Shown: positions 24,417-26,233 of the stretch, piece by piece
How the letters are laid out: each line of letters begins with the position of its first letter
Position numbering within the stretch: the stretch's first letter is position 1
NCBI GenBank assembly: GCA_013298895.1
Contig: JAAFJM010000013.1
Location: 16,170 to 80,169, forward strand
Reading direction: 5' to 3'
From: Bacteroidota bacterium
GTDB lineage: Bacteria > Bacteroidota > Bacteroidia > UKL13-3
Length of the DNA stretch: 64,000 nucleotides
Notes under the pieces: model-generated
Told to the model about the DNA's origin: nothing
What the model saw: the letters and a program-made list of their open reading frames with translations, nothing else
The model's database searches: none
Translations under genes and position numbers: made by a program

Positions 24417-25553
24417 ATGGAAAATTTTGTGGTTTCGGCCCGTAAATACCGTCCGGCTAGTTTCGATACAGTAATTGGCCAGGGCCATGTAGTACAAACT
24501 TTAAAAAATGCCATTAAAAACAAGCATTTGGCGCACGCATTTTTATTTTGCGGACCACGTGGTGTAGGTAAAACTACCTCTGCTCGCTTGTTAGCTAAAA
24601 CTATAAACTGTACCAACTTAACTGCCGATTTAGAGGCTTGTAATAAATGCGATAGCTGCAATGCTTTCAATAACAATGCATCGTTTAATATTTATGAGCT
24701 TGATGCTGCAAGCAATAACTCAGTTGACGATATTAGAGCCTTGGTTGACCAAGTGCGTTACGCGCCACAAGGCGCTACTTATAAAATTTATATTATAGAT
24801 GAGGTACACATGTTAAGTGCGAACGCCTTCAATGCATTTTTAAAAACATTGGAAGAACCACCTCCATATGCCAAATTTATTTTAGCAACTACTGAAAAAC
24901 ATAAAATACTCCCAACTATTATTTCTCGTTGTCAAGTATTCGATTTCCATAGAATTAAAATTGAAGATGCAGTTAAGCAATTAAAAGCCATTTGCGAAAA
25001 AGAAAATATTACTGCCGATGAAGATGCGCTGCATGTAATTGCCCAAAAAGCTGATGGAGCCATGCGTGATGCACTTTCTATTTTTGATAGAATAGTAAGT
25101 TTTAGTGGAACAAACATTAAATACCAAGATGTAATTAATAACCTAAACATTCTTGATTACGATTATTACTTTAAAGCAGTAAACTTACTTTTAAATGAAG
25201 ATTTAGCGGGCTTACTTTTATTGTTTGATGAAATATTGAACAATGGCTTTGATGCATTACATTTTGTTGGCGGATTTAGCGAACATATCCGTAATTTGAT
25301 GGTTTGCAAACATCCTGATACAGTAAAACTATTAGAAGTATCGCAAACGGTAGCTGTTAAATTTAATGAGCAAGCCAAAGCTTGCAATTTAGCGCTTATG
25401 CTGAACGCATTGAATATTTTAAATAAATGCGAATTAGACTACAAAACATCGAAAAATGCTAGGCTGCATGTGGAGCTGTGCTTAATGAAATTAAGCCATA
25501 TCCAATCCTATATCAACCTACAAAATAATGGTGTTGACTTAAAAAAAAAATAG
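24417..25553 (+). CDS. dnaX: DNA polymerase III subunit gamma form (DnaX, zero frame)
   Basis: 378 residues holding the clamp-loader ATPase: Walker A GPRGVGKT (46-53), zinc-finger cysteines C65, C75, C78 and C81, Walker B IIDEVH (126-131), the SRC sensor (170-172) and the following AAA lid and collar helices. Translation ends at TAG directly after a run of ten A bases (25541-25550). Bacteroidota DnaX proteins are usually about 600 residues, and the missing C-terminal part continues in the -1 frame. The zero-frame product ends about where domain III ends, like the gamma protein of E. coli. Either slippage makes both forms, or the A-run is miscounted in the assembly. Confidence 0.9.
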   Translation: MENFVVSARKYRPASFDTVIGQGHVVQTLKNAIKNKHLAHAFLFCGPRGVGKTTSARLLAKTINCTNLTADLEACNKCDSCNAFNNNASFNIYELDAASNNSVDDIRALVDQVRYAPQGATYKIYIIDEVHMLSANAFNAFLKTLEEPPPYAKFILATTEKHKILPTIISRCQVFDFHRIKIEDAVKQLKAICEKENITADEDALHVIAQKADGAMRDALSIFDRIVSFSGTNIKYQDVINNLNILDYDYYFKAVNLLLNEDLAGLLLLFDEILNNGFDALHFVGGFSEHIRNLMVCKHPDTVKLLEVSQTVAVKFNEQAKACNLALMLNALNILNKCELDYKTSKNARLHVELCLMKLSHIQSYINLQNNGVDLKKK

Positions 25554-25573
25554 TTGATTTTTCTGATTCAACT
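25541..25573 (+). promoter_or_regulatory. A10 slippery site with adjacent stop and hairpin in dnaX
   Basis: Zero frame reads TTA AAA AAA AAA TAG. Adding one A (or losing two), or a -1 ribosomal shift, gives AAA ATA GTT GAT and an open frame to 26233. A possible 6-bp stem, AGTTGA (25552-25557) with TCAACT (25568-25573), starts two bases after the run. A homopolymer this long is known from Thermus dnaX as a transcriptional slippage site; E. coli dnaX uses -1 ribosomal shifting at AAAAAAG. Confidence 0.65.
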
Positions 25574-26233
25574 CAAACAGAACCTACTGAAAATAAACCC
25601 ATTGACAATCCATCTATTGTTAATACATCAGTAAACACTGAACCCGCCATTACTCCTACAATAGTTCAGGAACAGCCAATTGCTCTTCCTGAAAATAAAG
25701 TTGTTTCAAATAATCTTCCTCCAATGCCTAAAACTGGAGGTTTGTTTGGCAAAAAATCGGGAGATTCAATTGCTCAATTGAAGGAGCAAATGGCCGAAAA
25801 ACTTAAAAACGAAATCCAAGAAACGCAAAAAGAAACTGAAGAAAAAATTCTCGAAATTGAAGATTTCAGTAAAGATGAATATTATTCAGATTCAGATATG
25901 AACCGTGTTTGGGTTGATTTTGTAGTACAGTTAAATAAAGGTAGTTTAAGTTTTTTAAAAGAGCGTAAGTTAAAAAACGATAGCCACAAAATAACCTTAG
26001 TACTTGCTAGTAACCATGAAAGGAGTTTGTGTGAAGAACATCGATTAAACGCGTTGCAATATTTTAGAATTAATTTAAAAAACACCCAAATAAATTTAGA
26101 TTTTGAGGTGGATACCACATTAATTCCTGAAACAAAATCGCTTTCTGTGGAAGATAAGTTTAACAAAATGGTAGAACAAAATCCCGATTTAGCCACACTT
26201 CGTCAATTGCTTGAATTGGAAATTGAATATTAA
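25550..26233 (+). CDS. dnaX: tau-specific C-terminal part of DnaX (-1 frame)
   Basis: About 227 residues read in the -1 frame from the A-run: IVDFSDSTQTEPTENKPI, a Pro/Thr-rich linker to about 25720, a charged helix (LKEQMAEKLKNEIQE), then the folded C-terminal domain ending VEQNPDLATLRQLLELEIEY. This is the expected tail of Bacteroidota DnaX, where tau contacts the polymerase and helicase. Joined to the zero frame it gives a protein of about 605 residues, the normal family length. The in-frame ATG at 25724 is inside the linker and is not a convincing independent start. Confidence 0.8.
   Translation: MVDFSDSTQTEPTENKPIDNPSIVNTSVNTEPAITPTIVQEQPIALPENKVVSNNLPPMPKTGGLFGKKSGDSIAQLKEQMAEKLKNEIQETQKETEEKILEIEDFSKDEYYSDSDMNRVWVDFVVQLNKGSLSFLKERKLKNDSHKITLVLASNHERSLCEEHRLNALQYFRINLKNTQINLDFEVDTTLIPETKSLSVEDKFNKMVEQNPDLATLRQLLELEIEY

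Follow-up and report, generated by a model that had tools for sequence, protein, structure and literature searches.

The dnaX gene in the window, a stretch of 64,000 nucleotides from a 3.6 Mb genome assembled to draft level in 90 contigs, raises the question of whether a gene interrupted by a stop codon is an artifact or encodes two proteins and, if the latter, which machine makes the switch. The zero frame, 378 codons long, passes through TTA AAA AAA AAA TAG at 25539-25553 and stops directly after ten A residues. The -1 frame, taken from the ATA at 25550-25552, is open for 227 codons and ends at the TAA at 26231-26233; joined to the first part it would give a predicted tau of 605 aa. The initial annotation had described this arrangement, with a tau C-terminus in the -1 frame up to 26233 and a joined length of about 605 residues, and on both points our reading agrees with it.

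Table. Features of the window's dnaX locus (coordinates of the zero-frame ORF include its stop)
Feature	Position	Strand	Remarks
Predicted gamma: dnaX zero-frame ORF, ATPase + lid + domain III	24417..25553	+	Pfam PF13177, PF22608, PF12169; TIGR02397 dnaX_nterm, 439 bits
Predicted nascent-RNA stem-loop UCAAC-CUA ... UGG-U-GUUGA	25513..25537	+	Fold -4.9 kcal/mol; 3 nt 5′ of the run
Candidate slippage run A10	25541..25550	+	A9-A12 at the same junction in 206/251 phylum genes
TAG, zero-frame stop ending gamma, abutting the run	25551..25553	+	In the genus: TAG 9, TAA 1 (10 genomes)
TGA, stop of the third frame (used by neither gamma nor tau), 2 codons off	25555..25557	+	Frame shut within 10 codons in 195/201 genes
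Tau-specific part, shifted frame, 227 codons + stop	25550..26233	+	NF011531 match 414-613; dN/dS (see text); first start 58 codons in

The two pieces fall on successive stretches of a single DnaX model, NCBIfam NF011531 (614 positions, DNA polymerase III gamma/tau): the N-terminal part covers positions 1-366 and the shifted-frame part positions 414-613 (E 1.4e-12), each partial score falling under the model's whole-protein cut-off. The shifted-frame part, which has no Pfam match, looks to be under constraint in the genus: its dN/dS is 0.13-0.31 in the eight of nine comparisons that yielded a value, against 0.02-0.05 for the ATPase part, the figures for the shifted part being rough because dS exceeds 1 in six of the eight. 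The A10 run followed by an immediate stop is found in all ten genomes of the window's genus; conservation of the run and of an early zero-frame stop was a check that the initial annotation had suggested. The named relatives are mostly metagenome-assembled genomes, some from ponds or lakes to judge by their isolate names.

To place the site in the phylum we read dnaX in 251 genomes, drawn from two overlapping sets: 153 of the 196 genomes of the first set (the window's included), leaving out those with no listed position or with the gene cut by a contig end, and 115 of the 118 of the second, an even draw over the phylum from which G210, G232, and G277 were omitted. The DnaX query had matched in 195 of the 196, in a few weakly. 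The first 235 genomes underlie the control, tree, stem, and Shine-Dalgarno (SD) counts given here, and the last 16 enter only the 251-genome frame and start-codon counts. A run of A9 to A12 occupies the gamma/tau junction in 206 of the 251 genes (A10 in 150, A9 in 39, A11 in 16, and A12 in 1). In the even sample the run is present in 85 of 115 genes, 35 of them split, and within the window's class in 28 of 29, 14 of them split. Among the first 235 genomes, runs of at least nine A residues stand at the junction in 194, whereas the rest of these genes, which add up to 137,966 codons, has five. The junction site is real and conserved, and a chance origin of the run is excluded. An independent two-product invention by this lineage, as first proposed, is not supported, the run being present in most of the phylum's genes.

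Nor is the run peculiar to split genes. The frame could be classified in 204 of the 206 run-bearing genes (G041 and G086, which run off their contigs, were left out); 135 of them have tau in frame, 66 have it displaced by one base, which is the state of the window, and three have it in the +2/-1 relation. The 69 split genes are spread over 18 families, and the split state occurs only with the run, all 45 genes that lack it being continuous. It was correctly anticipated that most Bacteroidota dnaX genes form one continuous frame (180, compared with 69 split), but they are not ordinary for that, as 135 of the 180 carry the same type of run. Since this is so, and since the off-frames behind the run are nearly always shut, the site itself looks inherited and it is the phase that differs. 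UKL13-3 (Bacteroidetes bacterium, CP012155, L056) is an example of a continuous dnaX whose junction holds an A10 behind which each off-frame stops within three codons; because the gene is continuous and looks ordinary while the site is present, a gamma product there would be missed by annotation.

Several further observations concern the distribution of such runs. Families f23, f32, f45, f63, f64, f69, f71, and f75, in each of which two to six members were examined, have no junction run and a continuous dnaX. G127 (L173) has no run at the junction and an A10 at dnaX residue 457, about 80 codons further on, which may be a displaced site. Four other dnaX genes have a second run of A9-A10 at residues 448-575. 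A selected Lys-Lys-Lys in the protein can be ruled out as the cause of the run: among 12 genes whose ATPase part has a GC content of at least 0.60, six retain it, and of the 19 Lys triplets that these 12 genes have at other places none is AAA throughout.

The phase appears to have changed repeatedly. On a FastTree phylogeny built from 235 sequences of the ATPase part, with the junction excluded, the run-bearing genes must have passed between the in-frame and the split state about 26 times; 75 of the 229 inner branches of this tree are open, and if only its starred branches are trusted the split-by-one label still changes at least 14 times. Both counts are blind to gain versus loss. Both phases occur within genera g54, g100, g115, and g120. 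Two Sporocytophaga metagenome-assembled genomes (L077 and L080), with similar junctions, differ in that one has A10 with tau in frame and the other A11 with tau two bases out, and this pair is a natural one-base change of phase.

What accompanies the run through these changes is closure of the frames that do not lead to tau. Both are shut within 10 codons past the run in 198 of 204 genes (188 of 192 in the 235-genome set), and in the window they stop after zero and two codons. The same closure is found at 29-32% of control codons of the same genes, after 27% of other A5-A8 runs, and at 28% at the equivalent place in dnaX genes without the run. The third frame, for which a simple -1 ribosomal shift has no use, is shut within six codons in 168 of 189 genes, compared with 34-41% at control codons; its genus median lies within 10 codons in 90 of 94 genera. 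Such closure is what would be expected if mRNAs of several lengths were made, as in Thermus (PMC1088944, in the portion available to us).

A second companion of the run is a predicted RNA stem just 5′ of it. When the best hairpin with its 3′ arm ending at each position was scored in 192 genes, the mean was -3.60 kcal/mol for arms that touch the run and between -2.6 and -3.0 for those ending one to four bases before it, compared with -0.91 in the ATPase part, -0.7 to -1.0 at nine to twenty bases upstream, and up to -1.5 further 5′. Stems of -5 kcal/mol or better are found at the run start in 34% of genes versus 5% at control places. At the genus level, taking the best of five offsets, the score is -4.81 versus -2.02, with -5 or better in 50% of 96 genera versus 12%; comparison of the 96 genera with same-gene controls gives p 1.3e-11, genera being non-independent samples. 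Dinucleotide shuffles make composition a weaker explanation for the stem but do not dispose of it: the real mean is -5.75 versus -2.89, and 74 of 192 stems beat 95% of their shuffles. These 74 comprise 69 of 146 genes in the window's class and five of 46 in other classes; of the stems at A9 runs, two of 28 go beyond 95% of shuffles. Predicted stems ending 0-4 nt 5′ of the run are thus much more frequent than chance would give, chiefly among genes of the window's class. A second measure, folding of the 40 nt upstream relative to shuffles, shows the excess too (per-genus z -0.71 versus -0.18 for control sequence, p 0.00016).

Within the window's genus (g1), all ten stems beat at least 97% of shuffles. 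In the alignment of the genus stem, 96.8% of cells are paired over seven distinct rows, two pairs are changed on both sides (C-G/U-A and A-U/G-C), and there is one U-G/U-A exchange. Covariation score and paired share are matched by two of 500 shuffles, and slid partners pair far worse; the count of doubly changed pairs was matched by 57 of 500 shuffles and the count of pair types by all 500, and neither of these two counts in g1 rises above shuffles. Across genera, 96 of 593 stem differences within a genus are compensatory (16%, versus 6% in stems elsewhere in the gene) and 49% keep the pair, versus 33% for controls, with the pair broken in 300 of the 593, these comparisons being ordered pairs and not independent. 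Covariation in genus g3 was uninformative, 187 of 500 shuffles scoring as high (16 of 17 run-bearing genes, the A12 gene being excluded), and in the alignment of genus g2 the stem fails by eye in two of seven rows.

The helper hairpin originally envisaged lay downstream of the run, and it has not fared well. It folds weakly (z -0.6 to -1.5) and is retained in three of the ten genomes of the genus, and over the 192 genes the downstream offsets listed in the stem scan score near or weaker than control, reaching -1.16, with no set place. The poor conservation in the genus and the lack of a positional peak rule it out as the stimulator; the conserved predicted stem is the upstream one. There is a slight excess of folding over the 45 nt downstream (per-genus z -0.51 versus -0.18, p 0.025), with z at -1.25 or lower in four of the ten genomes of the genus, and comparison with same-gene downstream windows gave no folding difference (mean z -0.09).

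The window's genome has 19 distinct tracts of A10 or more. Six lie on the sense strand in other open frames of at least 200 codons, and their upstream stems are weaker (best -3.0, versus -4.3 for dnaX), which argues against regarding the dnaX site as one more instance of a genome-wide A10 habit. These six tracts (L324, L325, L326, L329, L330, and L342), of which three lie no more than 12 codons from where their frame begins, are possible incidental slippage sites; one frame of L324 has nucleotidyltransferase and CBS domains, and one of L326 a Reg_prop repeat.

Taken together, the run, the off-frame stops, and the stem make transcriptional slippage the likely event at the window's dnaX site. 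We think it quite probable that RNA polymerase, helped by the hairpin, slips on the A10 and makes mRNAs of more than one length, the unslipped mRNA giving the short gamma and the mRNA with one added A giving the long tau. The RNA-DNA hybrid of RNA polymerase is 9-10 bp long (PMC5009743); when the run has just been copied, the whole hybrid would consist of rA:dT, and a stem forming in the exit channel at its upstream edge would loosen it and favor re-pairing one base out, an effect already proposed for a Roseiflexus insertion sequence (PMC5009743). A one-base insertion would be the usual slip, to judge from the 66 split genes that need one extra base and the three that do not. Programmed slippage yielding gamma from the zero frame and tau from the shifted one, the reading with which the initial annotation began, is on present evidence still the best account of the data.

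For the phylum, we lean toward a broader proposal: that Bacteroidota dnaX carries an ancient, frame-indifferent slippage cassette, composed of a hybrid-length A run, stops in both off-frames and, in Bacteroidia, an exit-channel hairpin, whose frame has toggled some two dozen times with neither product lost. With both kinds of mRNA, slipped and unslipped, present together, selection would hold the tau phase only weakly, and dnaX would be free to toggle because the polymerase would supply every frame. The phase could then flip many times between tau in frame and gamma in frame while the run, the off-frame stops, and in the window's class the stem persist.

The principal competitor is slippage by the ribosome, mostly through a -1 shift on A_AAA_AAA, which would yield tau from a single mRNA species much as E. 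coli makes gamma; we consider it unlikely, with a modest chance of being right. Ribosomes are also able to slide on A runs, potentially using all frames. The window's run contains A_AAA_AAA, and 66 of the 69 split genes have tau in the -1 frame. SD-like motifs are enriched 5′ of the run, occurring within 20 nt upstream in 30% of the 96 genera versus 15% at control places (22% versus 15% in split genera), and the slight downstream folding excess points the same way. A -1 shift, however, makes the closure of the third frame superfluous, and that closure is far above control; three split genes require +2/-1, the run is found in all three codon phases, and no downstream stem stands at a fixed position. 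Moreover, a ribosome standing on the run is expected to have melted a stem that ends 0-4 nt upstream. It is for three of these reasons, the shut third frame, the expected melting of the stem, and the want of a fixed downstream stem, that we rank transcription above translation. Taken alone, the position of the stem is no proof against ribosomal slippage, because stem-loops 5′ of shift sites, one only 4 nt away, are known to change ribosomal shifting (PMC5009743, in the sections seen).

The three remaining explanations dispense with programmed slippage. DNA-level phase variation, in which replication slippage alters the length of the run and cells toggle tau on and off, draws on the differences in run length among species and on the genera that contain both phases, but we regard it as very improbable: the length is A10 in all ten genomes of the window's genus, the off-frame stops better fit simultaneous use of the frames, and off cells would be lost, dnaX being taken as essential. 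Still less probable is reinitiation past the stop, with the second ORF translated separately as a tau tail; the stop and the downstream open frame do adjoin, but in the window the first ATG, GTG, or TTG of the tau frame lies 58 codons past the run, and within 10 codons there is an ATG in none of the 69 split genes and any start in four, compared with three and 15 of the 135 in-frame genes, so there is no excess. The least probable of all is an assembly or homopolymer-length error within one continuous gene, for which the 90-contig draft gives some occasion and which the initial annotation had itself doubted; it is refuted at the level of the genus by ten genomes of ten with A10 and an immediate stop, and split genes occur in 18 families.

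If transcriptional slippage is indeed the mechanism, a large part of one of the major bacterial phyla relies on a stuttering polymerase for its clamp-loader subunits, and gamma, the short form, has been under long-term selection, which is relevant to its disputed role. Split dnaX genes that look truncated would be intact, and continuous ones would conceal a second product. The roughly two dozen frame changes offer a natural series on how a split essential gene stays functional, and an RNA stem 5′ of an A run would be a slippage signal worth scanning for.

Among the open-access matches listed, we found no paper describing for Bacteroidota a dnaX slippage site that extends through the phylum or is assisted by a hairpin, and none reporting a site common to continuous and split genes, recurrent switches of phase, or a stem abutting the run on its upstream side. 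Tau as the shifted product has been noted in a minority of bacteria, a Chlorobium being named, in a 2016 review (PMC5009743, as far as the text available to us goes). The E. coli dnaX gene resembles the window's in that two DnaX forms come (in the window, by prediction) from a single gene; there, a -1 ribosomal frameshift at an A_AAA_AAG heptamer with a downstream stem makes gamma (PMC5009743; PMC3711429, both in part), whereas the window has neither A_AAA_AAG nor a conserved downstream stem. In Blochmannia a poly(A)-tract frameshift in dnaX has been proposed to be corrected by transcriptional slippage (PMC3017870); from the portion of that report at hand, the genome is that of a symbiont and is reduced, and the tract lies within the region found in tau alone, whereas the window's lies at the gamma/tau junction.

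Thermus thermophilus provides a close parallel to the proposed transcriptional slippage. Its dnaX has A9 with tau in frame, nearby off-frame stops, and mRNAs of mixed length that give both products (Larsen 2000, as summarized in PMC1088944 and PMC5009743, from the parts available), and the window shares with it a run of at least nine A residues at the gamma/tau junction and stops close behind in both non-tau frames. The window differs in having A10 and a split gene; in the phylum at large, tau occupies the zero frame in 135 of 204 genes, as it does in Thermus. An upstream stem is predicted in the window, and those parts of the Thermus reports mention none. For the stem, a precedent is the transposase of a Roseiflexus insertion sequence, in which an inverted repeat directly 5′ of U5C5 forms a nascent-RNA stem and one base is deleted (Penno 2015, as summarized in the accessible text of PMC5009743). 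There, too, the inverted repeat abuts the slippery run on its 5′ side, the window's predicted stem being 3 nt from its run; the Roseiflexus site, U5C5 with a one-base deletion, belongs to a mobile element, whereas ours, A10 with what we infer to be mainly a one-base insertion, belongs to a housekeeping gene.

A split dnaX has been described before. In 2013, Antonov et al. (PMC3711429) reported 17 two-ORF dnaX genes from 12 genera, nine of the 17 with 10 A's, and proposed slippage; some of these genes may be from Bacteroidota. The window's gene is of that type, its gamma ORF ending at a poly(A) run and tau continuing in the -1 frame. As far as that part of the article goes, it defines a structural type, whereas in Bacteroidota being split is just one of the phases taken by a site that continuous genes have as well, with a predicted stem abutting its 5′ side.
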